A stretch of DNA of 64,000 nt from Prauserella flavalba (lineage in GTDB: Bacteria; Actinomycetota; Actinomycetes; Mycobacteriales; Pseudonocardiaceae), in assembly GCF_003202235.1 (NCBI RefSeq), contig NZ_MASU01000005.1, positions 372,001-436,000 on the forward strand, given 5' to 3'. Under the pieces are notes generated by a model that saw only the letters and a list, made by a program, of their open reading frames with translations, did not search any database and was not told where the DNA came from. Made by a program: the position numbers and the translations under genes. Below are positions 23,704-52,483 of this stretch, piece after piece. How positions within the stretch are numbered: the stretch's first letter is position 1; every line of letters starts with the position of its first letter.

Positions 23704-23741
23704 GAGACGGCCCGGCTCCCCGAGGGGAACCGGGCCGTCTC
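23704..23741. terminator. Terminator after aconitase gene
   Basis: Long hairpin: GAGACGGCCCGG (23704-23715) pairs with CCGGGCCGTCTC (23730-23741), and the stem continues inward through TCCCC/GGGGA. It lies just past the acn stop on the minus strand and before the permease start. Confidence 0.85.
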
Positions 23742-26709: not shown

Positions 26710-26744
26710 AAGGGCCCGGCACCACGACGTGGTACCGGGCCCTT
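26710..26744. terminator. Terminator hairpin upstream of acn, downstream of the membrane-protein operon
   Basis: AAGGGCCCGGCACCAC (26710-26725-region) pairs with GTGGTACCGGGCCCTT (26729-26744), giving a stem of about 15 bp with one mismatch. It follows the stop of the gene ending at 26760 on the minus strand. Confidence 0.82.
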
Positions 26745-37463: not shown

Positions 37464-37501
37464 TCTTTTCCCACCTACCGACTTTCTTTGTGGAGGACTC
37501 G

Positions 37502-38269
37502 TTGTCCGGACTGCTCGAAGGCAAGCGGCTGCTGATCACGGGCGTGATCACCGACGCGTCGATCGCGTTCCACGCGGCCAGGGTCGCGCAGGAGCAGGGT
37601 GCGAAGGTGGTGCTCACCGGTTTCGGGCGGCTGTCGCTCGTCGAGCGCATCGCCAAGCGGCTGCCCGAGCCCGCGCCCGTGATCGAGCTGGACGTGCAGA
37701 ACCAGGAGCACCTGGCCACGCTGGCCGACCGCGTGCGGGAGCACGTCGACGGCCTCGACGGGGTGCTGCACTCGATCGCCTTCGCCCCGGCGAGCTGCCT
37801 CGGCGCGCCGTTCCTGGACGCGCCGTCCGAGGACGTCGGCAAGGCGGTGGACGTGTCGGCGTACTCGTACAAGGCGGTGGCGAAGGCCGTGCTGCCGCTG
37901 CTCGGGCCGGGTTCGTCGATCGTCGGCATGGACTTCGACGCGCGCGTGGCGTGGCCCGCCTACAACTGGATGGGTGTCGCGAAGGCCGCGCTGGAGTCGG
38001 TGAACCGCTACCTGGCCCGTGACCTCGGGCCGCAGGGCATCCGCGTCAACCTCGTCTCCGCCGGCCCGGTGAAGACGATGGCGGCGAAGTCGATTCCCGG
38101 CTTCAGCGAGCTGGAGGAGGGCTGGGGCGACCGCGCCCCGCTCGGCTGGGACACCACCGACCCGACGCCGGTCGCCAAGAGCATCTGCGCGGTGCTCTCG
38201 GACTGGCTGCCCGCCACCACCGGCTCGATGATCATGGTCGACGGCGGGGTCCACGCCACCGGCCAGTAG
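37502..38269 (+). CDS. inhA: Enoyl-ACP reductase InhA
   Basis: NADH-dependent enoyl reductase of type II fatty-acid synthesis; in mycobacteria the isoniazid target. [23 protein letters not shown] binds NADH; Ser91 (HSIAFAP) corresponds to Ser94 of the M. tuberculosis enzyme, and Tyr154/Lys161 ([10 protein letters not shown]) to Tyr158/Lys165. 255 aa against 269 in M. tuberculosis: about ten residues are missing in the substrate-binding loop between [10 protein letters not shown] and [11 protein letters not shown]. Start TTG 37502 with GGAGG five bases ahead. The gene ends at a palindromic repeat, and hemH, its usual downstream neighbour, is 2.4 kb further on. Confidence 0.93.
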
Positions 38270-38280
38270 CCCTGTCACGT

Positions 38281-38334
38281 GGCCCCAAGGCCACCTTGGT
38301 TGCGTTGAGCGCAACCAAGGTGGCCTTGGGGGCC
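38281..38334. repeat. Palindromic intergenic repeat, copy 1
   Basis: Near-perfect inverted repeat: 22-base arms at 38283-38304 and 38310-38331 with loop TTGAG, and extra pairing at the outer ends. The arm begins CCCCAAGGCCACCTTGGTTG. The same element occurs at 50823-50873 with a base change that is matched in the opposite arm. It lies between the convergent inhA and SnoaL-type genes and may serve as a bidirectional terminator. Confidence 0.85.
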
Positions 38335-38343
38335 GTTGCGCTG

Positions 38344-38742
38344 TCAGCGGGGGCGGGCCGCTTCGGCGACGGCGTGGCTGTCCTCGAGGATCAGGTAGCG
38401 GGTGATGCGGCCGCCGACGACGGTCAGCTGGATCGTGAACGGCGTCTCGATCACCCTGCCCGTGGTCCGGACCACCGACCGGAGGTGGCCGGTGGCCACG
38501 GCGTGCTCGCCGTCGACGAAGACGCGCTCGACCTCGAAGATGTCGCGTTCCAGGTGCTCGTCGAGCGTGGCGTAGAACGCGGCGGCCTCATCGCCGGTGC
38601 GCCTGCGGCCGATCCACGGCACGATGCCGGTGGCGCCGGGGATGTCCCAGTCGACGTGGTCGGCGAACAGCGCGCGCGTGCCCGCCAGATCACCCCGCGC
38701 CAGCCGGGCGAACAGCGCGTCGACGGTCTCTCTCGTGGTCAT
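38344..38742 (-). CDS. SnoaL-like/NTF2-fold protein
   Basis: Small barrel-fold protein, 132 aa, of the SnoaL-like group. Helical start VDALFARLARGDLAGTRALFADHVDWDIPGATG, then strands VERVFVDGEHAVATGHLRSVVRTTGR and FTIQLTVVGGRITRYLILED, all typical. ATG 38742 with AAAGG six bases ahead. It is the last gene of the tetR-MFS-SnoaL block on the minus strand, beginning 27 bases after the MFS gene ends. It may detoxify or modify the compound exported by the MFS protein, but that is inference. Confidence 0.8.
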   Translation of the reverse strand: MTTRETVDALFARLARGDLAGTRALFADHVDWDIPGATGIVPWIGRRRTGDEAAAFYATLDEHLERDIFEVERVFVDGEHAVATGHLRSVVRTTGRVIETPFTIQLTVVGGRITRYLILEDSHAVAEAARPR

Positions 38743-38768
38743 GTGGTTCCTTTCCGTGGGTTGCGGGT

Positions 38769-39941
38769 TCACCGGACGAGTGCGGGGACGGGGGCGCGGC
38801 GGGCGAGTGCGGCCGCGAGCGCGACCCCGGCGAGTGCGGCGACCCCGAGCGCGACGCTGACCCACGCGACGCCCGCGTAGCCGGACCCGGCCTCGATCGC
38901 GAGCCCGCCGAGCCAGGGCGCCACGACGATGCCGACGTTGAACGCCGTCACGTTCGTCGCCCCGGCGAGCGTGGGTGCGTCGCCGGCGAGCGTGAACACC
39001 CTCGTGTTGAGGGACGGGTTGGTGACGAAGCCGAGCAGGCCGAGCAGGAAGATCGCCACGACGGTCACCGGCGCGCTCGACGCGGCGAGCCCGATCAGCA
39101 CCAGCACGACGAGCGTCCCGCCGAGTGCGGCGGCCAGCGTGGTGAGCGGTCTCGTGTCGGCGAGGCGCCCACCGAGGGTGACGCCGGTGAGCGCGCCGAC
39201 GCCGTAGACGCCGAGCAGCACCGGGATCCAGCCCGGCGCGAGACCGGTGACGTCGGTCAGCAGGGGAGCGAGGTAGCTGAACGTGGCCATGCTCGTCGCG
39301 ACCGTCAGCGCGCTGATCACGAGTGCGAGCCACACCTCGCGGTCGCGGTAGGCGCGCAGTTCCGCGCGCAGCCTCGGCCGCTCGCCCGTGCGGCCCGCCG
39401 AGGCGGGGATCAGCGCGAGGACACCGGCGAACGCGACGATCGCGAGCCCGCCGACGGCCCAGAAGGCCGTCCGCCAGCCGCCGTGCTGGCCGACGAACGT
39501 GCCCGCGGGCACGCCCAGCACGTTGGCCGTGGTGAGCCCGCCGACCACCACGGCCATCGCGCGGCCCCGGCGGCCGGCCGGCACGAGGCTCATGGCGGTC
39601 ACCGCCGCGACGGCCCAGAAACCCGCGCACGCGAGCGCGCAGACGAGACGGCTGGCGAACAGCACCTCGTAGGTCGGCGCGAGCGCGCCACCGGCGTGCC
39701 CGAGCGCGAACACGGCCAGCATCGCGAGCATCGTCAGCTTGCGCGGCAGGCGCAGCGTGGCGGCGGCGAGCAGGGGAGCGCCGACGATCATGCCGGCCGC
39801 GAACGCGGACACGAGCAGGCCGGCGTCGGGGATCGACACGCCGAGATCGGCGGCGATCGACGGCAGCAGCCCGGCGATCATGAACTCCGAGGTGCCGAGC
39901 GCGAAGACGCTCAGCCCCAGTACGTAGATGGCCAGTGGCAA
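38769..39941 (-). CDS. MFS drug-type exporter (DHA1 family)
   Basis: Twelve-helix major facilitator of the Cmx/AraJ-like DHA1 group, 390 aa. Diagnostic opening GLSVFALGTSEFMIAGLLPSIAADLGVS, then the motif-A-like region around RLPRKLTML and motif C in GGWRTAFWAVGG. I place the start at TTG 39941, since GGGAG precedes it by five bases; the frame stays open to a TTG at 39953 that would overlap the operator. An inverted repeat with the same half-sites and spacing as that in front of the neighbouring tetR lies just upstream (39953-39976). Related proteins export chloramphenicol and similar drugs. Confidence 0.88.
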   Translation of the reverse strand: MPLAIYVLGLSVFALGTSEFMIAGLLPSIAADLGVSIPDAGLLVSAFAAGMIVGAPLLAAATLRLPRKLTMLAMLAVFALGHAGGALAPTYEVLFASRLVCALACAGFWAVAAVTAMSLVPAGRRGRAMAVVVGGLTTANVLGVPAGTFVGQHGGWRTAFWAVGGLAIVAFAGVLALIPASAGRTGERPRLRAELRAYRDREVWLALVISALTVATSMATFSYLAPLLTDVTGLAPGWIPVLLGVYGVGALTGVTLGGRLADTRPLTTLAAALGGTLVVLVLIGLAASSAPVTVVAIFLLGLLGFVTNPSLNTRVFTLAGDAPTLAGATNVTAFNVGIVVAPWLGGLAIEAGSGYAGVAWVSVALGVAALAGVALAAALARRAPVPALVR

Positions 39942-39952
39942 CGCTTCTCCCA

Positions 39953-39976
39953 ATTTTGTATCAGTCGGTTCAAAAT
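39953..39976. promoter_or_regulatory. TetR operator upstream of the MFS gene
   Basis: ATTTTG (39953-39958) and CAAAAT (39971-39976) are inverted with a 12-base spacer. The same TTTTG-N12-CAAAA layout, with 8 of 12 spacer bases also matching when one site is reversed, occurs at 40598-40627 before the tetR gene. Confidence 0.75.
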
Positions 39977-40013
39977 GCGGGCAGGCGGAACGTCCGGCGC
40001 GGGGCCGGAGGGG

Positions 40014-40586
40014 TCAGAGTGCGGCGAGGGCGACCTCGGCGACGTTCTCGAGCGCGGCGCGGCCGGCGCCGCTGCGGGCCATCACGCGCAGGCCGCCCGC
40101 CGTGGTGTGCACGAACCGGGCCAGCGCGAGCGGATCCTTGTCCTTCGCGATCTCGCCGGTGCGCCTGCCCACCTCGATCGCGTCGCGGATCGCGGCGGTC
40201 AGGCGCTCGGTGTCGCGGCGGAGGTCCTCGCTGATCTCGGCGTCGCGCCCGCCCAGCTCCGCGGCCGTGTTCACGACCAGGCAGCCACGCGGTGAGCGGT
40301 ACTCGTCGTCGATGGTCTGGGCGAACAGGTCCCTGATCTTGTCCCGGACGGGACGGTCCTCGGCGAGCTGGTCGAGCCTGCGCTGCGTCGCGCTGTCCAT
40401 GTAGTGCCGCAGCGACAGGCGGAACAGCGCGTGCTTGCTGCTGAAGGTGTTGTAGATGCTGCTGCGGCTCAGTCCGGTCGCCTCGCACAGCTGCGCGGTG
40501 GAGGTGCCTTCGTAGCCGTGGTCCCAGAAAGCGTGCATGGCCTTCTCGACGGCGACGGCCTCGTCGAACTCCCGTGGACGTGGCAT
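40014..40586 (-). CDS. TetR-family regulator of the MFS exporter
   Basis: TetR repressor, 190 aa. Helix-turn-helix [27 protein letters not shown], then [19 protein letters not shown] (about residues 8-53). The C-terminal domain has [17 protein letters not shown], as in the YcdC/AcrR-like subgroup (TetR_C_16/LmrA-type). ATG 40586. Matching operators in front of this gene and of the MFS gene indicate that it controls itself and the exporter. The operator also lies in the hemH promoter region, so hemH expression could be touched. Confidence 0.87.
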
Positions 40587-40597
40587 GGGCTCACCGT

Positions 40598-40627
40598 AGC
40601 GTTTTGGACCGATCGATGCAAAACGCT
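40598..40627. promoter_or_regulatory. TetR operator between tetR and hemH
   Basis: Perfect 9-base inverted arms AGCGTTTTG (40598-40606) and CAAAACGCT (40619-40627) around a 12-base spacer that is itself partly palindromic (CCGATCGATG). It lies 12 bases upstream of the tetR start and 37 bases upstream of hemH. Confidence 0.8.
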
Positions 40628-40663
40628 GACCCGGTCCTGCGTGGGGGCGGCCACAGCGAGAAG

Positions 40664-41713
40664 ATGAACGTCGTGAACTACGACGCGCTGCTGTGGTTGT
40701 CCTTCGGCGGTCCGGAGGGGCCGGACGACGTCATGCCGTTCCTCGAGAACGTCACGCGGGGCAGGGGCGTGCCGCCCGAGCGGCTCGCCGAGGTCGCCGA
40801 GCACTACCACCACTTCGGCGGGGTGTCGCCGATCAACCGGCTCAACCGCGAAGCCATCGCCGCCGTCGAGAAGGAGCTCGCCGCGCAGGGCATCGAGCTG
40901 CCGGTGTACTTCGGCAACCGCAACTGGCACCCGATGGTCGAGGACACCGTCGCCACGATGAAGGCCGACGGCGTCCGCCGCGCGCTCGTGTTCCCCACCA
41001 GCGCCTACGGCGGGTACTCCGCGTGCCGCCAGTACGACGAGGACATCGCCCGCGCCAGGGCCGCGGTCGGCGACGGGGCACCCGAACTGGTGAAACTGCG
41101 GCAGTTCTTCGACCACCCGCTGTTCGTGTCCTCCTTCGCCGACGCCGTGCGCGCCGCCCACGCCCAGCTCGGCGACGCCGAGGGCACGCGCACCGTGTTC
41201 ACCGCGCACTCGGTGCCGCTGTCGGCCGACGTGACCTCCGGCCCGCCCGCCGAGGGCGGCAACCGCTACTCCCGCCAGATCGCCGAGGCGGCCAGGCTCG
41301 TCGCCGCCGAGGCCGGGGTGGAGGGCTACGACGTGGTGTGGCAGTCGCGGTCGGGCCCGCCGCAGGTGCCGTGGCTGGAGCCGGACATCGTCGACCACCT
41401 CGACGCGCTGCACGCCGAGGGCGTCACGTCCGTCGTGGTGTGCCCGGTGGGCTTCGTCTCCGACCACCTCGAGGTGATCTGGGACCTCGACAACGAGGCC
41501 GCCGACCGCGCGGGCGAGCTCGGCATGCGCTTCGCGCGCGCCGCCACACCCAACGGCGACCCGCGGTTCGCGGAGCTGGTGGCGGAGCTGGTCAGGGAGC
41601 ACACCGCGGGCGCACAGGCCCGCAAGCTCTCGGCGTTCCCGGCCTCGGGTGGCACGGCCAACGGCGAGCCGTGCGCCGCCGGCTGCTGCGAAGCGGTGAA
41701 GCGGCCTTCCTAG
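40664..41713 (+). CDS. hemH: Ferrochelatase (coproporphyrin ferrochelatase type)
   Basis: Inserts Fe2+ into a porphyrin near the end of heme synthesis. Actinobacterial enzymes act on coproporphyrin III in the coproporphyrin-dependent route (CpfC). [23 protein letters not shown] at the start, HFGGVSPIN, and [15 protein letters not shown] with the catalytic His. A [2Fe-2S] cluster is predicted from the C-terminal Cys337, Cys341 and Cys342 ([10 protein letters not shown]) plus the internal Cys of GGYSACRQY. 349 aa from ATG 40664; GTG 40673 is an alternative start. It is normally co-operonic with inhA in mycobacteria; here a three-gene block separates them. It shares a CTAG stop overlap with the next gene. 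Confidence 0.95.
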
Positions 41714-42540
41714 GAGCGGCTGGCCTGGTCGGCGAAGACGCGCACCGCCTCGTTCACGGCCGCGCACCGTGCGGTGCGAACCGCCTCGGACAGCGGGCGC
41801 AGCGCGTCGGCCCTGCGCGTGGCCGCGGACGCCGACAGCGCGCCCCCCGGTTCGTCGGCGCAGGCCAGTGCGAGGATCGCGCCGATCTCCTCGGCCCGCT
41901 GCAGCACGCGCAGCGCGCGGCCGGGGGTACCGGGCGGCCAGTCGGGCGCGGGCCGCGAACGGAGCTTCGCCGACAGCTCGGCGCGCACGCCCGGCCGGTC
42001 GCTGGCGACGTCGAGCGACTGCAGCGCGCCCGCGCTGTCCCTGATCGCGTCGGTGAGACCGTGCTCGGCGTCGGCGATGCCGACGTGGCCGAGCGGCGAC
42101 TCCGTCGCCACGGGATACACGGTCCAGCGCACGAGTCCCTCCGCGATCGCGTGCGGCACGAGGCCGTAGCCGAGGCCGGGGAACACGACGGCCTCACCGG
42201 CGCGGAGCGCGGCGTCGGTGAACGCACCGCCTCCGCCGAGGCCGCGAACGTCACCGGGAACGGGGAGCACGAGCCGGGCGGCCGTGGCGCCGAGCTTGCG
42301 CAGCGCGGCGAGCAGCTGCGCGGGGGTCGCGGGGAAGTCACCCGTCACCGGCAGGTCGAAGACGTCGGCCACGGCCTGCTCCGCCGCCACCACCTCGTGC
42401 GCCTCGCCCCACGCGAGCAGGGCGTCGAGCGCGTTGTCGGAGGCGGCGGCGCCGTGCAGCCACGCCGAGGACCAGACGGCAAGGGTCGCGCTGGGACAAC
42501 ACACAGAGATCGAGAGTACCCGGGGCTGGAGCTGGTCCAC
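41710..42540 (-). CDS. Conserved hypothetical protein (Rv1486c-like)
   Basis: 276-aa conserved actinobacterial protein with no recognised fold. Readable features: an Ala/Leu-rich helical N-terminus ([30 protein letters not shown]), the motif [29 protein letters not shown], and [28 protein letters not shown] in the middle. The same kind of gene sits beside hemH in mycobacteria. The start is uncertain: GTG 42540 is used; GTG 42504 is the alternative; neither has a good ribosome site. Divergent from the AAA+/VWA pair. Confidence 0.7.
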
Positions 42541-42577
42541 GTCGACGCCGGGCGGAACCGGCAGTAGCGTCGAGGCC

Positions 42578-43978
42578 GTGACCCAGTCTCCACCCGCTGA
42601 CCTGCCCCGTACCGCAGGCGAGCTGCGCGCCGCCGGGTACGCCCCCAAGGGCATCAAGACCGAGATCCACGACAACCTCCTCGCGGCACTGCGGGAGGGC
42701 GCCGATCCGTGGCCCGGCATCGTCGGCTTCTCGCGCACGGTGCTGCCGCAGTTCGAGCGGGCCCTGCTCGCCGGGCACGACGTGGTGTTGCTGGGCGAGC
42801 GCGGCCAGGGCAAGACCCGCCTGCTGCGCACGCTGGCCGGGCTGCTCGACGAGTGGACCCCCGTGATCGAGGGCTCCGAGCTGGCCGAGCACCCGCTCCA
42901 GCCGATCACCCCAGCGTCGCAGCGCCGCGCCGCCGAACTCGGCGACGACCTGCCCGTCGCGTGGCTGCACCGGGATCTGCGCTACACCGAGAAGCTCGCC
43001 ACGCCCGACACCTCCGTCGGCGACCTCATCGGCGACGTCGACCCCGTGAAGGTCGCCGAGGGCCGCAGCCTCGGCGACCCCGAGACGATCCACTTCGGCC
43101 TCGTGCCGCGCGCCCACCGCGGCATCGTGGCGATCAACGAGCTGCCCGACCTCGCCGAGCGGATCCAGGTCGCGCTGCTCAACGTGATGGAGGAACGCGA
43201 CATCCAGGTCCGCGGCTACACGCTGCGGCTGCCGCTGGACGTGCTGCTGGTCGCCACGGCCAACCCCGAGGACTACACCAACCGCGGCCGGATCATCACG
43301 CCGCTCAAGGACCGCTTCGGCGCCGAGATCCGCACGCACTACCCGCTCGATGTCGCCGCCGAGGTCGGCGTCGTCAAGCAGGAGGCCGACCTCAAGGCGG
43401 AGGTCGGTGACCCGCTGCTGGAGGTGCTGGCCCGTTTCGTGCGGAACCTGCGCGAGTCCAGCGTCGTCGACCAGCGTTCCGGCGTGTCGGCCCGGTTCGC
43501 CGTGGCGGCGGCCGAGACCGTGGCGGCCGCCGCGCTACGGCGCTCGGCGCTGACCGGCGAGCACCCCGCCGTGGCCAGGCCGGTCGATCTCGACGCCGTG
43601 CCCGCCGTGCTGCGCGGCAAGATCGAGTTCGAGCCGGGGGAGGAGGGGCGCGAGACCGAGCACCTCGTGCACCTGCTGCGCCTGGCGATCGCCGAGACCG
43701 CCCGTGACCGGTTCGCCGGACTGGACCTGCGGCCGCTGGCCGAGGCCGTCGCGGACGGGCACCTGGTGGCCACGGGCGAGCGGGTGCCCGGCCGGGACGT
43801 GCTGTCCGCGCTGCCGGAGCTGCCCGTGCTGCACGAGGTCGCCCAGCGCGCGGGCGTCTCGTCGGACGACGCGCCGGGCCGCATCGCCTCGGCCGTCGAG
43901 CTCGCCCTGGAGTCGCTCTACCTGGCCCGCAGGCTCGCGAAGGACGCCGACGACGCGACGACGGTGTACGGGCCGTGA
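42578..43978 (+). CDS. AAA+ ATPase of the Mg-chelatase ChlI/MoxR type
   Basis: AAA+ ATPase, 466 aa, related to magnesium-chelatase subunit I but in an organism without bacteriochlorophyll; Rv0958 is a similar protein. Walker A is LLGERGQGKT (about residues 67-76), Walker B is GIVAINELPDL, sensor is LLVATANPEDYTNRGRIITPLKDRFGAEI, and an arginine-rich lid follows. GTG 42578 has no strong ribosome site. Its GTGA overlap with the following VWA gene means the two are made together, as ChlI and ChlD are. Confidence 0.88.
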   Translation: MTQSPPADLPRTAGELRAAGYAPKGIKTEIHDNLLAALREGADPWPGIVGFSRTVLPQFERALLAGHDVVLLGERGQGKTRLLRTLAGLLDEWTPVIEGSELAEHPLQPITPASQRRAAELGDDLPVAWLHRDLRYTEKLATPDTSVGDLIGDVDPVKVAEGRSLGDPETIHFGLVPRAHRGIVAINELPDLAERIQVALLNVMEERDIQVRGYTLRLPLDVLLVATANPEDYTNRGRIITPLKDRFGAEIRTHYPLDVAAEVGVVKQEADLKAEVGDPLLEVLARFVRNLRESSVVDQRSGVSARFAVAAAETVAAAALRRSALTGEHPAVARPVDLDAVPAVLRGKIEFEPGEEGRETEHLVHLLRLAIAETARDRFAGLDLRPLAEAVADGHLVATGERVPGRDVLSALPELPVLHEVAQRAGVSSDDAPGRIASAVELALESLYLARRLAKDADDATTVYGP

Positions 43979-45945
43979 GTGCCCGGCCGCCGGAGAACCC
44001 GGAGAGCTACGCCTACGGGCCCTACCACGACGGGCCCGACCCGCTCGCGCCTCCGGTGGATCTGCGTGACGCCGTGGACGAGATCGGCCGCGACGTCATG
44101 GCGGGCTCCTCGCCGCGTTCGGCGCTGGAGGAGCTGCTGCGCCGGGGCACCCGGCGCACGGCGGGGCTGGACGAGCTGACCCGGCGGGTCTGGCAGCGGC
44201 GCTCGGAGATCCAGCGGCGGCACCGGCTCGACGGCACGCTGCAGGAGGTGCGCCGCCTGCTCGACGAGGCGCTCGACGCCGAACGCCGCGCGCTGTTCCC
44301 GGACCCGTCCGACGACGCGCGCTTCCGTGAGGCGCAGCTCGACGCGCTGCCGCCCGGCACGGCGGCCGCCGTGAGCGATCTCGCGAACTACGAGTGGACC
44401 TCGGAGACCGGGCGGGAGAACTACGAGCGGATCCGCGAGCTGCTCGGCAAGGAGCTGCTCGAGTCGCGCTTCGAGGGCATGAAGCAGGCCCTGCAGTCCA
44501 CGAGCCCCGAGGACGTCGAGCGGGTCAACCAGATGCTCGCCGACCTCAACGCGCTGCTGTCGGCGCACGCGCAGGGGTTCTCCGACATCGACGAGCGCTT
44601 CGCGGAGTTCATGCGCAGGCACGGCGAGTTCTTCCCGGAGAACCCCCAGAACGTGGAGGAGCTGATCGACGTGCTCGCCGCGCGCGCCGCGGCGGCACAG
44701 CGGATGCTCAACTCGATGACGCCGGAGCAGCGCGCCGAGCTGGCACAGTTGTCGCAGCAGGCGTTCGGCGACCCGCGCATCGCGCAGCAACTGTCCACAC
44801 TGGACCAGCAGCTGCGCGGCCTTCGTCCCGGTGAGGACTGGACGTCCTCGGCCCGCTTCCGGGGCGACGACCCGCTGGGGCTGGGCGAGGGCGCGCGGGC
44901 GATGACCGACCTCGCCGAGCTGGACGCGCTCGCCGAGCAGCTGTCGCAGGCCTATCCGGGCGCACGGCTGGAGGACATCGACCTCGACGCGCTGGAGCGT
45001 CAGCTCGGGGAGGAGGCCGGCGTGGACGCCCGCAGGCTCGCGGAGCTGGAACGGGAGCTGCGCGCGCAGGGCCTGTTCGAGCGTGCGCCCGACGGCTCGC
45101 TGCGCCTGTCGCCGAAGGCGTTGCGGCGCCTCGGGGAGACGGCGCTGGCCGAGGTGGTGCGTGCCCTGCGCGGGCGCAGCGGCGACCGGGACACGACGTC
45201 GGCGGGTGCGGCGGGGGAGCCGGACGGCTCCACCCGGCCGTGGCGGTTCGGCGACACCCAGCCGTGGGCGGTGTCGCGCACCGTGCGCAACGCGGTGCTG
45301 CGCACGGCCGCGAGCCGGCATTCGGGCGCCGTGCGGCTCGACGTGTCCGACGTCGAGGTGGTGGAGACCGAGCACCGGTCCCGCGCCGCCGTGGCGCTGT
45401 GCGTGGACACGTCGTGGTCGATGGTGCAGGAGGACCGCTGGCTGCCGATGAAGCGCACCGCGCTCGCGCTGCACCAGCTGATCTCCACGCGGTTCCGCAA
45501 CGACGCGCTGCAGCTCATCACGTTCGGCCGCTACGCCGCACCGGTGGAGCTGGCCGAGCTGGTGGGCCTGGAGGGCGCGTGGGAACAGGGCACCAACGCC
45601 CACCACGCGCTGCTGCTCGCGGGCAGGCACCTGCGCAGGCATCCGGACGCGCAGCCGGTGGTGCTGATGGTGACCGACGGCGAGCCGACCGCCCACCTGG
45701 AGCAGGACGGCGTGGCCGAGTTCGACTACCCGCCGAGCCCGCGCACGCTGCTCAAGACACTGTCCGAAGTGGACAGGCTGGCGAAGCTGGGCGCGGCGGT
45801 GTCGGTGTTCCGGCTCGGCGACGACCCTCGGCTGGCGGCGTTCGTCGACCTGCTGGCGCGCCGCGCGGGTGGCCGCGTGCTCGCTCCGGACCTCGACGGG
45901 CTCGGCGCCGCGGTGGTCGGCGACTACCTCCGCAACCGCCGCTAG
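43975..45945 (+). CDS. Large VWA-domain protein, partner of the ChlI-like ATPase
   Basis: 656-aa soluble protein. The N-terminal two-thirds are helical and charged (repeated RRxxEL and Glu/Arg-rich helices, residues about 60-400). The C-terminal VWA domain has a MIDAS (LCVDTSWSMVQEDRWLPMKR, about residue 475) and LMVTDGEPTAH. Related to Rv0959. Expected to form a complex with the AAA+ protein and act on an unknown client. The TAG stop at 45943-45945 is also the first triplet of an intergenic repeat. Confidence 0.87.
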   Translation: MSARPPENPESYAYGPYHDGPDPLAPPVDLRDAVDEIGRDVMAGSSPRSALEELLRRGTRRTAGLDELTRRVWQRRSEIQRRHRLDGTLQEVRRLLDEALDAERRALFPDPSDDARFREAQLDALPPGTAAAVSDLANYEWTSETGRENYERIRELLGKELLESRFEGMKQALQSTSPEDVERVNQMLADLNALLSAHAQGFSDIDERFAEFMRRHGEFFPENPQNVEELIDVLAARAAAAQRMLNSMTPEQRAELAQLSQQAFGDPRIAQQLSTLDQQLRGLRPGEDWTSSARFRGDDPLGLGEGARAMTDLAELDALAEQLSQAYPGARLEDIDLDALERQLGEEAGVDARRLAELERELRAQGLFERAPDGSLRLSPKALRRLGETALAEVVRALRGRSGDRDTTSAGAAGEPDGSTRPWRFGDTQPWAVSRTVRNAVLRTAASRHSGAVRLDVSDVEVVETEHRSRAAVALCVDTSWSMVQEDRWLPMKRTALALHQLISTRFRNDALQLITFGRYAAPVELAELVGLEGAWEQGTNAHHALLLAGRHLRRHPDAQPVVLMVTDGEPTAHLEQDGVAEFDYPPSPRTLLKTLSEVDRLAKLGAAVSVFRLGDDPRLAAFVDLLARRAGGRVLAPDLDGLGAAVVGDYLRNRR

Positions 45946-46015
45946 GAGTGTGCTGAACGACCCCGCCCGTAGCGAGCGTCGCGCAGTAGGGCAGTGGTTG
46001 TTCAGCGCGCTCCTA
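45943..46015 (+). repeat. Intergenic repeat, copy B, starting at a stop codon
   Basis: Begins with the VWA gene's TAG: TAGGAGTGTGCTGAAC (45943-45958) recurs inverted as GTTCAGCGCGCTCCTA (46000-46015), matching at 14 of 16 positions. The first 39 bases match copy A (minus strand, from 22974) at 35 positions. It fills the space between two convergent genes. Confidence 0.7.
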
Positions 46016-46025
46016 GGCGGCGACG

Positions 46026-46241
46026 TCAGGACGGCCGGACGTCCCGTTGCAGCTCGACGTCGGCCACGCCCGGCACGTCCTGCAGCGCGGCGAGGACGGT
46101 GTCGGCGTCGACGGAACCGGTGACGGTGCCGAGGAGCTCCTGCACACCGTCGACGGACATCCCAGCCTGCCGCAGGTCCGACACCACGTCGTCGAGCGTG
46201 CCGAGGTTCTCGTCGGCGACGGACACGATCACCCTGGTCAC
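46026..46241 (-). CDS. 71-aa I9/propeptide-like protein next to a subtilase
   Basis: Tiny protein with a beta-alpha-beta-beta-alpha-beta pattern: RVIVSVA, LDDVVSDLRQAGM, VDGVQELLGTVTGSVD, ADTVLAALQDVPGV, VADVELQRDVRP. This is the layout of peptidase-inhibitor I9 (subtilisin propeptide) domains, although databases often call such sequences ketohydroxyglutarate aldolase, a name that cannot fit 71 residues. GTG 46241 follows GGGAGG. It starts 32 bases after the stop of the subtilase gene on the same strand. I infer a stand-alone inhibitor or folding chaperone for that protease; no signal peptide is present in either. Confidence 0.72.
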   Translation of the reverse strand: MTRVIVSVADENLGTLDDVVSDLRQAGMSVDGVQELLGTVTGSVDADTVLAALQDVPGVADVELQRDVRPS

Positions 46242-46273
46242 GATGCACCTCCCGTCGGGGTCGGGCGGCGCGG

Positions 46274-47452
46274 TCAGGGTGCCTGCACCAGCCCCGCGCC
46301 GACATCCGTCGAGGGTAGCGGCAATCGGCGGGCCGACTGGGAAAGCCGTGCCCACAGCTCCCAGCCGCGGGCCCCGTGCCGCTGCGCGGCGAGCGCGGCG
46401 GCGCCCGCGACGTGCGGCGTGGCCATGCTGGTGCCGCTGATGGTGTTGTACCGCTCGGGCATCGTCCAGCTGGAGTAGACGTCCACGCCGGGGCCCGCGA
46501 GGTCGACCGCGTTGCCGGGATCGACCGTGCCGCACGAGAAGTCGGCGACCGCGCGGTGCACGTCGATCGCGCCGACGGCCAGTATCGACGGGCAGTTGGC
46601 GGGGTGGCCGACCGGCGCGATGTGCCCGTCGGCGCGCCTGCTCTCGTTCCCGGCCGCCGCGACGATCAGCGTGCCCTGCCGCAGCGCCCTGCTCGCGATG
46701 GTCTCGAAGATCCGCGAGTGCGGGTCGCCGGGCTGCGTGGCGGCGCCGAGCGACATCGATACCACCGCGCAGCGGTTGCTGATCGCCCACTGGATGCCGG
46801 AGAGGATGCCGCCGTCGGTGCCCGATCCGGCGTTGCTCAGCACCTTGCCCGCGTAGATCTCCGCCTCGTAGGCGACGCCGTAGCCGCGCCCGGTCGACGG
46901 CGTGCGCGGCCCGCACGCGGTGCCGACGCAGTGCGTGCCGTGCCCGTGCTCGTCGTCCACCGGCTCGCCGTCGACGAACGAGCTGGTGACGAGCGTGCGC
47001 CCGGCGAGGTCGGGGTGGTCCACGACCACGCCGGTGTCGAGCACGGCCACGCGGACGCCCTTTCCGGTGGCCGTGCTCCGCGGCGCGCCGAGCGCCTGGA
47101 GGCCCCACGTGAACGTGGTCTCGTCGACGGTGTCCTCCGGCTCGACGGCCGGTGCCGCGTAGGCGTGCACGGTGCGCTCGGGTTCCACGAGCGCGAGCGG
47201 GCCCTGCCCGGCGGCGCGGGTGAGCGCGTCGGCCTGGTCGGCGGCCGCGGTCACCACGGCGACACCGAGTTCGTGCAGCAGGAGCCCGTCGGGGGCGGAC
47301 AGCAGGCTGATCGCGGTGGTCCCCAGCACGTCGGCGGTACTGGCGGGATGCAGGCCGGCGACGCTGGCGAAGGTGCTCACCGCCGCGGCCGAGGAGTCCT
47401 CCTCGAGAAGTACGAGATACCGTCTGGTCCCGCTGTCAGCGCCACTGGTCAT
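46274..47452 (-). CDS. Subtilisin-like serine protease (S8), no signal peptide
   Basis: Serine protease of 392 aa with a complete triad: Asp139 (VAVLDTGV), His171 (HGHGTHCVGT), Ser342 (SGTSMATPHVAG), plus the oxyanion Asn269 (AAAGNES). Residues 1-95 (RRYLVLLEED through VEPERTVHAY) look like an I9-type prodomain. No signal sequence or membrane anchor is seen, so it is probably intracellular or exported by an unusual route. ATG 47452 with AAGGTGG upstream; an in-frame GTG at 47461 adds three residues. It is followed by the 71-aa I9-like gene. Confidence 0.9.
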   Translation of the reverse strand: MTSGADSGTRRYLVLLEEDSSAAAVSTFASVAGLHPASTADVLGTTAISLLSAPDGLLLHELGVAVVTAAADQADALTRAAGQGPLALVEPERTVHAYAAPAVEPEDTVDETTFTWGLQALGAPRSTATGKGVRVAVLDTGVVVDHPDLAGRTLVTSSFVDGEPVDDEHGHGTHCVGTACGPRTPSTGRGYGVAYEAEIYAGKVLSNAGSGTDGGILSGIQWAISNRCAVVSMSLGAATQPGDPHSRIFETIASRALRQGTLIVAAAGNESRRADGHIAPVGHPANCPSILAVGAIDVHRAVADFSCGTVDPGNAVDLAGPGVDVYSSWTMPERYNTISGTSMATPHVAGAAALAAQRHGARGWELWARLSQSARRLPLPSTDVGAGLVQAP

Positions 47453-47496
47453 GGCCGCCACCTTCTGTCTTCAGTTGGGGAGTGGGAGGAAACCTC

Positions 47497-48852
47497 CTAT
47501 GTTACGAGCCGGGTACGCGGCGTGACAATCACGCGGGCGCCACGACTCGGCACCATCGTGATGTTGCGGGCCTTCGCGGGTTCGGGACGGGCGCGGTCGG
47601 GCGTCAGGTGGAAGCGGGAGAGCACCGCCCGCAGCACGACCGTGGCCTCCAGCAACGAGAATCCGGCCCCGAGGCAGCGGCGGACCCCGCCGCCGAACGG
47701 GAACCACGTGCCCGCGGGCGGGCCGTCACCGAGGAAGCGCTCGGGGCGGAACGCGCCGGGCCCGGGGTGGTGCGCCGGGTCGGCCTGCACGAGGGCGATC
47801 GAGGGCATCACCGTGTGCCCCGCCGGGATGCGGTAGCCGCCGACCTCGATGTCGCGGGTGAGCTTGCGGGCGACCTCCGAGATCACCGGGTGCAGCCGCA
47901 TCGACTCCTTCGCCACCGCCTCCAGGTACTTCTCGTCGCCGTCGTCGGCGGCGCGCGTGGCGGCGGCCAGCTGCGCGGGCTCGCGGGCCAGTTCATGGAA
48001 CGCCCACGCCAGCGCGGTCGCGGTCGTCTCGTGCCCCGCCAGCAGCAGGGTGATGAGCTGGTCGCGCAGCTCCGCATCGGTGAGCCCCTCGCCGTCGGTG
48101 CCCTCGACGGCGAGCAGCCGGGACAGCACGTCGTGGCGCTCGCCGAGGTCACCCGCGCGCCTGCGCTCGGCGATCTCGGCGTAGAGCAGCTCGTCGGTGC
48201 GCCGCTGGGCGATCGCGTAGCGCTTCCACGGCCCGTACCGCTGCAGCTTCGGGTTGTGCCAGCCGAGCAGGTCGACCGGCCCGACGTCGACGATCCGGCG
48301 CAGCAGGGTCCGCAGCTCCTCCAGCCGGGGTCCCTCCGCGACGCCGAACACGACGCGCAGGATGATCTCCAGCGTCAGCGCCTGCATGCGCGGGTGGGAG
48401 GAGAACGGCGTGCCCGGCCGCCAGCGCTGCACCTCCCGCTCGGTGAGCTCGGTGACGAGGCCGCGGTAGCCGCGCAGCGCGGCGCCGTTGAACGCGGGCA
48501 TCAACAGCTTGCGGGCACGCAGGTGCACGTCCTCGTCGGTCAGCAGCACCGAGTGCTCGCCCATCGCCGGCTTGAGGATCACGTTGCCCTCGCCCGCGTG
48601 GAAGACCGAGGCGGGGCCCGCGAAGACGGCGCGGATGTGGTCGACGTCGGCGAGCTGCACGACGTGGCGCTCCGGGTAGATGCGCAGCCGCACGACATCG
48701 CCGTGTCGGCGGCGCAGCCTCGGCATCCAGCGGTGCCGGTAGGAGCCGAACAGCACGGTCTGGACGGCCAGCGGGAGCCGTGGCCCCGGCGGCGGGGCGG
48801 TGGCGGTGAGGTTCTCGATGCGCACGCCGGGCGTCGTCGTCTCGGTCGTCAC
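47497..48852 (-). CDS. Cytochrome P450
   Basis: Heme-thiolate monooxygenase, 451 aa, soluble. I-helix oxygen motif LLLAGHETTATALAW (about residue 265), K-helix ExxR in KESMRLHP, and the heme-binding loop FPFGGGVRRCLGAGF with the cysteine ligand. The N-terminus (PPGPRLPLAVQTVLF) and overall pattern resemble CYP138/CYP110-like enzymes that take fatty acids or terpenoids; the substrate is not predictable. ATG 48852. No ferredoxin gene is adjacent, so electrons come from elsewhere. Divergent from a tetR, with a 35-base dyad between them. Confidence 0.93.
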   Translation of the reverse strand: MTTETTTPGVRIENLTATAPPPGPRLPLAVQTVLFGSYRHRWMPRLRRRHGDVVRLRIYPERHVVQLADVDHIRAVFAGPASVFHAGEGNVILKPAMGEHSVLLTDEDVHLRARKLLMPAFNGAALRGYRGLVTELTEREVQRWRPGTPFSSHPRMQALTLEIILRVVFGVAEGPRLEELRTLLRRIVDVGPVDLLGWHNPKLQRYGPWKRYAIAQRRTDELLYAEIAERRRAGDLGERHDVLSRLLAVEGTDGEGLTDAELRDQLITLLLAGHETTATALAWAFHELAREPAQLAAATRAADDGDEKYLEAVAKESMRLHPVISEVARKLTRDIEVGGYRIPAGHTVMPSIALVQADPAHHPGPGAFRPERFLGDGPPAGTWFPFGGGVRRCLGAGFSLLEATVVLRAVLSRFHLTPDRARPEPAKARNITMVPSRGARVIVTPRTRLVT

Positions 48853-48870
48853 AGGTGCTCCTTCGCCAGT

Positions 48871-48905
48871 GATCTACACGTGCGTTTTATACGCGCGTAT
48901 AGATC
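48871..48905. promoter_or_regulatory. 35-base dyad operator between P450 and tetR
   Basis: Arms 48871-48885 (GATCTACACGTGCGT) and 48891-48905 (ACGCGCGTATAGATC) are inverted copies matching at 13 of 15 positions around a 5-base centre. Nested in the right side is a perfect 14-base palindrome, TATACGCGCGTATA (48888-48901). It lies 19 bases from the P450 start and 42 from the tetR start. Confidence 0.75.
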
Positions 48906-48946
48906 GGGTGTCCAGGGTCACGCCCGCGGCCGGGTACGCTGCGGGC

Positions 48947-49558
48947 GTGGGCCATCGGGAAGACCTCCTCGTCGCGGCCCGGCGGCTGCTGGAGGACAAG
49001 GGCTACGCGCACATCACGACGCGTGACCTGGTCGCGGCCTCCGGCACGAACCTCGCGTCGATCGGCTACCACTTCGGCTCCAAGGCCGGGCTGCTCAACG
49101 CCGCCATCGGCCAGGTCTTCGAGGAGTGGACCGACCAGCTGGCCGACCTCGCGATGGCCGACCCGTCGGCCTCGCCCGTCGAACGCGGGCACGTCACGTG
49201 GGCGGCGCTGCTCGGCAGCCTCACCAGCAAACGCAAGCTGCTGCTCTCCTACGTCGAGGCGCTCGCGCAGGCGGAGCGGACCCCCGACCTGCGCAGCCAG
49301 TTCGCGGAGCAGTACCGGCGCTGCCGCGAGCGCGTCGCAGGCCTGGTCGCGGAGTCCCTCGGCGACGGTACCCCGCCCGACGACCCCCGCTGTCTCGCCG
49401 TCGCGAGCTTCGTGATCGCGATCTGCGACGGGCTGTCCGTCCAGTGGCTGCTCGACCCCGAGGCGGCCCCCACGGCGGAGGAGCTGCTCGCCGGTCTCGG
49501 GGCGATGTGGTCGGCGTCGTTCCCACCACGCGGGAAGGCGGACGACGTTTCCGCTTAG
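48947..49558 (+). CDS. TetR-family regulator beside the P450
   Basis: TetR repressor, 203 aa. Helix-turn-helix EDLLVAARRLLEDKGYAHITTRDL, then SGTNLASIGYHFGSKAGLLNAA (about residues 4-50). The C-terminal domain has FVIAICDGLSVQWLLDPEAAPT, as in TetR_C_6-type proteins. GTG 48947 chosen as the first start after the operator; in-frame upstream codons lie within the non-coding dyad. It probably represses the divergent P450 and itself. It ends 9 bases before mshC, so mshC may be read from this promoter too. Confidence 0.86.
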   Translation: MGHREDLLVAARRLLEDKGYAHITTRDLVAASGTNLASIGYHFGSKAGLLNAAIGQVFEEWTDQLADLAMADPSASPVERGHVTWAALLGSLTSKRKLLLSYVEALAQAERTPDLRSQFAEQYRRCRERVAGLVAESLGDGTPPDDPRCLAVASFVIAICDGLSVQWLLDPEAAPTAEELLAGLGAMWSASFPPRGKADDVSA

Positions 49559-49567
49559 TGTTGGGGT

Positions 49568-50806
49568 ATGCAGACTTGGTCATCGGTTGCCGTGCCCCGT
49601 ATCCCCGGAACGCCCCGCCCGTTACGCCTCCACGACACCGCGACCGGTCAGCTGCGGCCCACGGCGCCCGGCCGCGTCGCCAGGATGTACGTCTGCGGCA
49701 TCACCCCCTACGACGCCACGCACCTCGGGCACGCCGCGACCTACCTCGCCTTCGACCTCGTCCACCGGCTGTGGCTCGACGCGGGCCACGAGGTGCACTA
49801 CGTCCAGAACGTCACCGACATCGACGATCCCCTGCTGGAGCGTGCCGAGCGCGACCAGGACGACTGGGTGGTGCTCGGCATGCGGGAGACCGCGCTGTTC
49901 CGGGAGGACATGGAGGCGCTGCGCGTGCTGCCGCCCCGCGACTTCGTGGGCGCGGTGGAGAGCATCCCCGAGATCGTCGAGGTGATCGGCAAGCTGCTCG
50001 CGAGCGGTGCGGCGTACCGTGCGGACGACCCGGAGTACCCGGACGTGTATTTCGACCGCTCGTTCACGGGCCACTTCGGCTACGAGTCGAACTACAACGC
50101 CGAGACGATGGCGCGGTTCTTCGCCGAACGGGGCGGCGACCCCGAGCGCAAGGGCAAGCGCGACCCGCTCGACGCGCTGCTATGGCGGATGGCGCGGCCC
50201 GGCGAGCCGTCGTGGGAGTCGGACCTGGGGGAGGGGCGCCCCGGCTGGCACATCGAGTGCAGCGCGATCGCGCTCGGCCGCCTCGGCATGGGCTTCGACG
50301 TCCAGGGCGGCGGCTCCGACCTGGCGTTCCCGCACCACGAGTACAGCGCGGCCCACGCCGAGGCGCTGGCGGGGGAGCGTCCGTTCGCCCGCCACTACGT
50401 GCACGCCGGGATGATCGGCCTCGACGGCGAGAAGATGTCGAAGTCGAAGGGCAACCTGGTGTTCGTGTCGCGGCTGCGGGCCGACGGCGTGGACCCGGCG
50501 GCCATCCGGCTGGCGCTGTTCGCCGGGCACTACCGCGACGACCGCGCGTGGACCGACGGGCTGCTCGCCGCGGCGCGGGAGCGGCTCGCCCGCTGGCGTG
50601 AGGCCGTGTCGCTGGAGGCGGGCCCCGCCGTCGACGACACCGTGGCCCGGCTGCGTGACCACCTCGCCGACGACCTCGACACCCCGAAGGCGCTCGCCGC
50701 CGTCGACGCGTGGGTGACCGAGGCGCTGGGCCGCCGCGGCACCGACACCGAGGCGCCCGCCCGGCTCCGCGCCGCCGTCGACGCCCTCCTCGGCGTCGCC
50801 CTCTAG
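49568..50806 (+). CDS. mshC: L-cysteine:GlcN-Ins ligase of mycothiol synthesis
   Basis: ATP-dependent ligase joining cysteine to glucosaminyl-inositol, the third step towards mycothiol. It resembles cysteinyl-tRNA synthetase without the anticodon domain: HIGH-like motif YDATHLGHA within [18 protein letters not shown] (about residue 42), zinc-type residues in [10 protein letters not shown] and FPHHEYS, and the KMSKS loop [12 protein letters not shown]. 412 aa, right for MshC and shorter than CysRS. ATG 49568. Neighbours further on (PAC2, metH, hisE, hisG) are those of Rv2130c. Confidence 0.95.
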
Positions 50807-50822
50807 CGCCCTCGCCGTCCGT

Positions 50823-50873
50823 CCCCCAAGGCCACCTTTGTTGCGTTGAACGCAACAAAGGTGGCCTTGGGGG
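50823..50873. repeat. Palindromic intergenic repeat, copy 2
   Basis: A perfect 51-base odd palindrome: 25-base arms at 50823-50847 and 50849-50873 around one G. It opens CCCCCAAGGCCACCTTTGTT. Compared with copy 1 (38281-38334), TTGG in one arm is TTTG here and CCAA in the other is CAAA, so pairing is kept. It lies between the convergent mshC and ABC-F genes. Confidence 0.88.
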
Positions 50874-50881
50874 CAGGTGGG

Positions 50882-52483
50882 TCAGCCGGCCGGCAGGGCG
50901 AGTTCGATGCCCTGCCAGGAGCGGCGGAGCCAGCGGTCGTGGGAGGCGACCACCACCGCACCCGGTGCGCTTTCCAGCGCCTCCGAGAGTTCCTCGGCGA
51001 GGGTGAGCGAGATGTGGTTGGTGGGCTCGTCGAGCAGGAGCACGTGCGGCGGGCTCGCCAGCAGCATCGCCAGCGCAAGCCGCCGTCGCTGCCCCACCGA
51101 CAGCCTCCCCACCTCCCGGTCGAGGTCCCTCGGCGCGATCAGCCCGAGTGACGACAGCGCCGGCGCCGCCTCACCGGCCGCCCCGGCGTAGAGCCGCCGG
51201 GGCGTCGGCGTGGGATCGGCGAACGTGACGTCCTGCTCCAGCAGCCCCACCCGCAGGCCACGGGCCCGGTGCACGGTGCCGCCCGCCGGGGCGAGCCTGC
51301 CCGCGAGCACCGCCAGCAGCGTCGACTTCCCGGTGCCGTTGCCGCCGGTCACCAGCAGCCGCGCCGACGTGCCGACGTCCAGCTCGCCCAGCCGCAGCCT
51401 GCCGGGCACGTCGAGGTCCCGCACCGACAGGGCCAGCCGCTGCTCGGCGGGCCTGCCGGTGAGCGGCGCCGCGAACCGCAGCGGCCGCGGCGGCCTGCGC
51501 ACCTGGTCGCGCTCGAGCTCCGCCAGCCGCAGCTGGGCGTTGCGCACCCGGCGGGAGATCTGCTTCTGCACCCGGCCGGTCTTGAAGTCGTACGCCATCT
51601 TCGCGTTGTCGCGGGCGGGACGGTTGTGGTTGATGTCCCGCGCCGTCACCGCGACGGAGTGCCGCAGCTGCTTGAGCTCCTCCTGCTCCTCGGCGTACCG
51701 CTGCTCCCAGCGCGCCCGCTCCGCCCGTTTGGCCTCCAGGTAGTCCGAGTAGCGCCCGCCGTAGCGGGCCGGCCCGCCGAGCGCGGGGTCGAGGTCCACG
51801 ATGTCCGTGCACACCGCGTCGAGGAACACCCGGTCGTGCGAGGAGACGACCACGATCCCGGACAACGCCGACAGGTGCCGTTCGAGGAACTCCATCGCCG
51901 CGTCGTCGAGGTGGTTGGTCGGCTCGTCCAGCAGCAGCGTCTCGGGCTGCCGGACGAGCAGCGCCGCGAGCGCGAGCCGCGAGCGCTGCCCGCCCGACAG
52001 GCTGCCGAGCGGGCGCTCCGGCTCGATCCCGCCGAGCCCGAGCCCCGCGCAGACGAGCTTCGCCCGCCGGTCGGCGTCCCACAGCTCGTGGGCCTGTGCC
52101 CACTCCAGCACGCGGCCGTACTCCTCCAGCGCGGCCGCGTCCCCGGGATCCTCGGCCAGCCGCTCGCTCAGCACGTCGAGCCGCGCGGCGGCCGCCCGGA
52201 TCTCGGCGAGCGCGTCGTCGAGCACGTCGGCGACGCGGGCCGTGTCCGGGAACGGCAGCTCCTGGCGGAGGAAGCCGAGGTCCCCGCCGCCGACCACCGA
52301 ACCGGCCTGCGGCCGTTCGAGCCCGGCGAGCAGGCGCAGCAGCGTGGACTTGCCGACGCCGTTCTCGCCGACGAGGCCGAGCCGCTGGCCCGCGCTCGCG
52401 GTGAGGTCGACGCCCCGGAACACGACGCGATCGCCGTAGGCGAACGCGAGGTCGCGGGCACGCAGGGAAAGGGAAGTGGACAT
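50882..52483 (-). CDS. ABC-F ATPase, antibiotic-resistance or translation-factor type
   Basis: Soluble protein of 533 aa with two ABC domains and no membrane part. First Walker A GENGVGKSTLLRLL, signature LSGGQRSRLALAALL, Walker B LLLDEPTNHLD; second Walker A GGNGTGKSTLLAVL, signature LSVGQRRRLALAMLL, Walker B LLLDEPTNHIS. The inter-domain linker (about residues 235-330, KRAERARWEQRYAEEQEELKQLR and onwards) is the ribosome-reaching arm. Such proteins eject macrolide, lincosamide or pleuromutilin-type drugs from the ribosome, or act as housekeeping factors. The second Walker B lacks the usual Asp after NH (NHIS rather than NHLD). ATG 52483; a structured leader lies upstream. Confidence 0.9.
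   Translation of the reverse strand: MSTSLSLRARDLAFAYGDRVVFRGVDLTASAGQRLGLVGENGVGKSTLLRLLAGLERPQAGSVVGGGDLGFLRQELPFPDTARVADVLDDALAEIRAAAARLDVLSERLAEDPGDAAALEEYGRVLEWAQAHELWDADRRAKLVCAGLGLGGIEPERPLGSLSGGQRSRLALAALLVRQPETLLLDEPTNHLDDAAMEFLERHLSALSGIVVVSSHDRVFLDAVCTDIVDLDPALGGPARYGGRYSDYLEAKRAERARWEQRYAEEQEELKQLRHSVAVTARDINHNRPARDNAKMAYDFKTGRVQKQISRRVRNAQLRLAELERDQVRRPPRPLRFAAPLTGRPAEQRLALSVRDLDVPGRLRLGELDVGTSARLLVTGGNGTGKSTLLAVLAGRLAPAGGTVHRARGLRVGLLEQDVTFADPTPTPRRLYAGAAGEAAPALSSLGLIAPRDLDREVGRLSVGQRRRLALAMLLASPPHVLLLDEPTNHISLTLAEELSEALESAPGAVVVASHDRWLRRSWQGIELALPAG

Follow-up and report, generated by a model that had tools for sequence, protein, structure and literature searches.

Strong U-tract terminators are rare in high-GC actinomycetes (PMC12207403), and U-less ends make up 353 of the 535 highly structured RNA ends of Streptomyces clavuligerus (PMC8269248). 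In these two reports, such U-less or 'I-shaped' terminators – also termed HS-U-lack ends – are long GC-rich hairpins lying soon after the stop codon with few or no U residues, and Streptomyces RNA ends fall at medians of 66-76 nt behind the stop (PMC12207403). Repeated sequences at gene ends can also form hairpins. Repetitive extragenic palindromic (REP) sequences, bacterial interspersed mosaic elements (BIMEs) and REPINs, with their REP-associated tyrosine transposases (RAYTs), are described as palindromes present in many copies between genes, close to gene ends; their sequence is peculiar to the species, and some include a second, inverted unit (PMC3733652, PMC3116915). Inverted pairs of one uptake-sequence word in Neisseria and Haemophilus give hairpins thought to be terminators (PMC2267715). 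Here, we describe a palindrome family represented twice in a 64,000-nt stretch of Prauserella flavalba DNA (assembly GCF_003202235.1, contig NZ_MASU01000005.1, positions 372,001 to 436,000; hereafter the window). Its members are lineage-specific, high-copy palindromes of ~50 to 59 bp, and we think it probable that they serve as bidirectional hairpins at RNA 3′ ends, acting in termination or 3′-end formation.

The TRIT motif is reportedly presented in the RNIE paper as a sequence-conserved terminator motif repeated through the Mycobacterium tuberculosis genome. By that description, the Prauserella family is like TRIT in being sequence-conserved and repeated in one actinobacterial genome; a TRIT model is named in PMC3526491. 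With the U-less ends of actinomycetes the family shares a long GC-rich hairpin soon after the stop codon, the scarcity of U and a high-GC host, but whereas those ends are each defined singly by structure, hundreds of copies of one sequence are present here, with another core in a congener. Unlike the uptake-sequence terminators, the word from which it is built differs between congeners. Among the literature listings and passages surveyed, mostly outside subscription papers, no earlier description of this palindrome family was seen.

Copy number and placement of the palindromes

The two window copies (Table 1) had been noticed in the initial annotation, which reported the same palindrome at both places, perfect over 51 bases in copy 2, with a stem position reading TTGG/CCAA in copy 1 and TTTG/CAAA in copy 2, and with convergent genes around both. 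The sequence and the gene calls agree with all of this, copy 1 being near-perfect; it can be read either as 22-bp perfect arms flanking 5 nt or as 24-bp arms flanking 1 nt with one mismatch. Folding of both copies on both strands gives z of -9.0 to -11.2, and none of 200 shuffles folded as well.

The same annotation supposed that the palindromes belong to a spread family, and a genome-wide search finds copies far beyond two. A 41-mer pattern with ≤3 mismatches has 111 and 112 matches on the two strands of the P. flavalba genome and 88 on each strand of G084, taken as the genome of its sister species Prauserella endophytica, with five or fewer per strand in the other 295 genomes; any match at all is confined to 6 of the 297 genomes examined. 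The reversed pattern gave no match in P. flavalba, and this, together with the folding of shuffles, rules out a chance origin of the family. The pattern AAGGCCACCTT-N9-R-N9-AAGGTGGCCTT, in which the purine at the single central base ensures that each copy is counted once, identifies at least 217 copies in P. flavalba and at least 175 in P. endophytica, both being lower bounds because exact outer 11-mers are demanded.

Two subfamilies share a common core and have unlike outer arms, the arm reading CCCCC-AAGGCCACCTT-TGT-TGCG-TTGAA... in subfamily A and CAGTG-AAGGCCACCTT-CAC (or GCC)-TGCG-TTGAA... in subfamily B. For closer comparison 140 matches were extracted and two discarded because their length was not 41, leaving 138 copies (94 from P. 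flavalba and 44 from P. endophytica; 71 A and 67 B); these were chosen mostly via exact outer arms, and some have imperfect 11-mers and so lie outside the sets of 217 and 175. An A outer arm with a B inner triplet, or the converse, occurs in none of the 138.

Palindromes of both subfamilies also exist in a long form, with a block of ~58 bp (CCCACCCGTCTCCC...GGAGACGCTGCGCGCCGC) at their exact centre. The start of this form has 57 matches in the P. flavalba genome at ≤2 mismatches and 44 at ≤1, with 2 for the reversed control. Among 30 long-form loci both arms were recognised by a loose pattern in 26 and the whole element was extracted in 25; the consensus fold of these 25 has the same outer stem closed over small inner hairpins, and the arms are usually unequal, since the left mostly reads ATGCC and the right mostly GTGAA. 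The block stands at G000:C5:253698, 345134, 368643 and 462508 and at further places, all outside the window, and P. endophytica has it without palindrome arms at two places, one of them a tandem pair. Rfam gave no match in the window, and seven family loci yielded only three miRNA-hairpin matches under the gathering score, so no known RNA family was matched at that score.

The copies are concentrated at gene 3′ ends, as judged from hexamer-based, uncurated gene calls. Convergent genes flank 93 of the 138, whereas 36 lie between tandem genes and 2 between divergent genes; a further 5 fall within called genes and the last 2 sit at locus ends. Intergenic space was measured in 464 kb of P. flavalba sequence, which holds 16 elements; 4,871 intergenic bases are in convergent gaps, 16,721 in tandem gaps and 13,215 in divergent gaps. 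The nearest facing stop codon is a median of 11 nt from the copy (10th-90th percentile 3-22, n=130), and in 32 of the 36 tandem gaps the copy is closer to the upstream stop than to the downstream start. Long forms are arranged similarly (18 convergent, 6 tandem, 1 divergent and 5 unmatched by the script among the 30 loci). The congener G053 carries 117 copies of a version with the core AAGGGCACCTT, and the first 30 of these are again convergent (20) or tandem (10), at a median of 11.5 nt from the stop. The convergent setting pointed out for the two window copies is therefore a strong bias of the family, and it recurs in G053 despite the other core.

The hairpin as a probable 3′-end signal

A 3′-end signal shared by both convergent genes is consistent with a hairpin that is symmetrical in both directions and lies at this distance from the stop codon. 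In transcripts of either flanking gene a hairpin of 24 to 29 bp would arise ~11 nt past the stop. Having no U-tract, this hairpin could stop RNA polymerase as a U-less intrinsic terminator; alternatively, it may fix and protect a 3′ end made by Rho. At the level of sequence the copies have what characterises U-less terminators – a stable hairpin close behind the stop with few U after it – while a canonical Rho-independent terminator was ruled out, the hairpin being present and the T-run absent. A ~51-nt hairpin starting 11 nt past the stop would place the RNA end near 60-70 nt, which we take to agree with the Streptomyces medians. Strong hairpins also lie behind mshC, the gene preceding copy 2, in some other genera: a stem score of ≥18 is reached at 8 of 80 mshC loci versus 0 of 3200 random windows, and ≥14 at 14 of 80 versus 5 of 3200, although this null is lenient because the random windows are mostly coding.

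Several observations weigh against this interpretation. No T-run adjoins copy 1 or copy 2 on either side, and a terminator scan flags neither. Just 10 of the 80 convergent pairs in the 464 kb carry a family member, so P. flavalba does not use the palindromes as its general terminator, and a hairpin of score 18 is missing from 72 of the 80 mshC loci. The 138 copies include orthologous pairs and hence are not independent. Finally, the outer 11-mers are more conserved than a terminator needs, and this hints at homogenisation, at spread in the recent past or at a protein that binds them.

Table 1. Coordinates of the two palindrome copies, their flanking genes and long palindromes at loci of other genera
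Feature	Position	Strand	Remarks
Copy 1 palindrome	38283-38331	.	subfamily A, short form; 24-bp arms, 1 mismatch beside centre
Copy 2 palindrome	50823-50873	.	subfamily A, short form; perfect 51 bases, 25+1+25
inhA/fabI-type enoyl-ACP reductase gene	37490-38269	+	stop codon to copy 1, 13 nt
SnoaL-like gene	38344-38772	-	convergent on copy 1
mshC (mycothiol cysteine ligase)	49568-50806	+	stop codon to copy 2, 16 nt
ABC-F ATPase gene	50882-52483	-	convergent on copy 2
Long palindromes in other-genus loci	L021 893-1286 and 16388-16448; L048 8838 and 11241; L058 11247 and 15974		

The MshC protein of the window has its closest named match in P. endophytica (97%), and among NCBIfam models the ABC-F ATPase scores best against that for producer-type ribosomal protection proteins (TlrC/CarA/OleB/SrmB), though under its cut-off. 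Two further near-perfect hairpins with 17- and 18-bp arms occur in the window at 26710-26744 and 23704-23741; they lie in tandem-gene gaps, fall outside the palindrome family, and are also present in P. endophytica.

Turnover, possible mobility and pairing of the arms

Of 94 P. flavalba copies tried, 20 have a syntenic site in the P. endophytica sequence examined, and family sequence is present at all 20, one site having a single recognisable arm and one being loosely placed; mean flank identity between the two species is 94.2%. The subfamily is swapped at 3 of the 20, including the mshC site occupied by copy 2 (a fourth difference, flagged in the ortholog comparison, joins two neighbours at one locus and was excluded). 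Two of the 20 are short in P. flavalba and long in P. endophytica, and one further site is the opposite, long in P. flavalba. Syntenic sites were found for 7 of 16 P. flavalba elements in G053 and for 5 of 16 in G014, and none holds a family copy; at one such site each congener has a strong palindrome of its own (22 and 19 bp). The inhA site in G053 has a 16-bp hairpin with a AAGGCCGCC core, and when three G053 copies were tried in the P. flavalba sequence one had a syntenic site, which lacks a 10-bp hairpin. On these few sites, the positions look stable at ~6% flank divergence and lineage-specific beyond it. The family has probably reached new gene ends within the lineage of P. flavalba and P. 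endophytica, with occasional change in place through A/B swaps and exchange of long and short forms.

Lineage-specific sites would also be left by a REP/REPIN-like mobile element, or one resembling a miniature inverted-repeat transposable element (MITE), that has no host role and is tolerated mainly behind genes since it is harmful elsewhere, an explanation that we regard as rather unlikely. High copy number and the partial tandem units present among the copies would suit such an element, and the long form, with inverted arms around ~58 bp, is roughly the size of a REPIN. The palindromes also resemble REPs in lying mainly in tandem and convergent gaps at high copy number (PMC3733652). They differ from the REP, BIME and REPIN systems in their 24- to 29-bp stems and their tight link to the stop codon, and mere tolerance would seem to predict a looser placement than the 11-nt median and the near absence of copies between divergent genes. 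A Y1/RAYT-type transposase (PF01797) was found neither in the P. flavalba genome (0/1) nor in its relatives (0/8), the Escherichia coli control being positive, and there is no regular end tag, since of 276 flanks 6 contain GTAG and 28 contain CGTC (≤12 nt, either strand); for these reasons a REP system with a RAYT was rejected. Seven alignments covering 6 sites revealed no target duplication, a weak negative because several alignments are poor and the flanks have diverged. The solitary arms found across 1.1 Mb of contiguous sequence include no autonomous element with family arms 0.3-4 kb apart.

Pairing of the arms was at the centre of the initial annotation, which took its preservation across copies to suggest selection on the hairpin or arm-to-arm correction; this stands in part. 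When 100 rows per genome are counted, the arms match at positions 12-14 in 40 of 57 A copies (expected 33.7) and 27 of 43 B copies (expected 19.6) in P. flavalba, and in 32 of 52 A copies (expected 27.6) and 30 of 48 B copies (expected 23.4) in P. endophytica. The excess has permutation p values of 0.0015 to 0.04, although the permutations assume independent copies, which these are not, and on this modest excess full independence of the arms was dropped as an explanation. In G053 matched triplets are present in 89 of 100 copies versus 77.7 expected, with three positions covarying; position 15 is without association (73 versus 71.1 expected), and at position 18, which is close to the loop, pairing falls short of expectation (37 of 100 versus 53.1). 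The pooled 138 copies give no clear excess (44 of 71 matched in A, expected 40.4; 32 of 67 in B, expected 29.2), and within the 67 pooled B copies position 10 is paired in 58 versus 45.8 expected and outer position -7 in 44 versus 31.5.

Among 22 same-subfamily orthologous pairs there are 26 one-arm changes, 2 compensated two-arm changes and 2 other two-arm changes. The position flagged in copy 1, G-C here and T-A in the P. endophytica ortholog, is one of the 2 compensated changes, so this covariation is real but untypical. Because one-arm changes outnumber compensated ones 26 to 2 and the ties between arms are weak, strict covariation was rejected as a general proof of selected pairing, though it is stronger in G053. 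Since there is next to no variation in the outer 11 bp of the arms, they offer no evidence on covariation, and such constancy speaks less for pairing alone than for a constrained sequence, homogenisation or a recent spread.

Arm-to-arm correction, a mechanism described in PMC8794818, could keep the arms paired mostly through template switching at replication forks and not through selection, in which case palindromy would say little on function. The two-arm change at the flagged position of copy 1 accords with this, as do rare haplotypes found on both arms – GGT/GGT and CCC/CCC twice each in P. flavalba (expected 0.1 for each) and CCG/CCG three times in G053 (expected 0.2). The arms are nevertheless unmatched at positions 12-14 in 33 of 100 P. 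flavalba and 38 of 100 P. endophytica copies, and with unmatched arms so common and one-arm changes so dominant among orthologs such correction would have to be slow or rare; it also leaves the placement of the copies unexplained, and we judge it improbable as an account of the family. A DNA site – a palindromic target of a DNA-binding protein (a nucleoid, gyrase or recombination site) for which gene ends are merely convenient – would suit outer 11-mers that are nearly invariant as AAGGCCACCTT, or as AAGGGCACCTT in the G053 set, but is just as improbable, since it explains neither the closeness of the copies to stop codons nor the strong hairpins of unlike sequence that other lineages have behind the same genes.

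Related palindromes in the Pseudonocardiaceae

A looser pattern, AAGG-N3-CCTT-N9-R-N9-AAGG-N3-CCTT, has matches in 114 of 297 Pseudonocardiaceae genomes and in 22 of 46 genera, reaching a maximum of 483 in G245 (247 and 236 by strand), and among the matches listed the interiors vary between genomes. By eye, the hairpins behind mshC in other genera are mostly unlike one another, and one from Kutzneria resembles the Prauserella family. Loci of Amycolatopsis, Pseudonocardia and Rhodococcus have long palindromes of their own, some of them repeated within one 20-kb locus and behind mshC (Table 1), and another genus has head-to-tail arrays of AAGG-N3-CCTT with a 30-base period (G114:C1:121-281 and 106049-106299; G131:C1:126094-126164).

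A broader proposition, possible but in our view doubtful, is that the Pseudonocardiaceae have 'house terminators': self-propagating, RAYT-free palindromes of the form AAGG-N3-CCTT ... AAGG-N3-CCTT that would colonise gene 3′ ends almost exclusively, replace unrelated hairpins as the stop signal and overwrite each other in place, with a genome-wide core that differs between congeners and arms partly equalised by arm-to-arm copying.

How transcripts end in high-GC actinomycetes is poorly known, and the palindrome family constitutes a natural experiment, with different cores in congeners and swapped subfamilies at orthologous sites. It offers a test of whether a hairpin alone ends transcription, of how repeats that have no known transposase come to settle behind genes, and of the speed at which arms are corrected.

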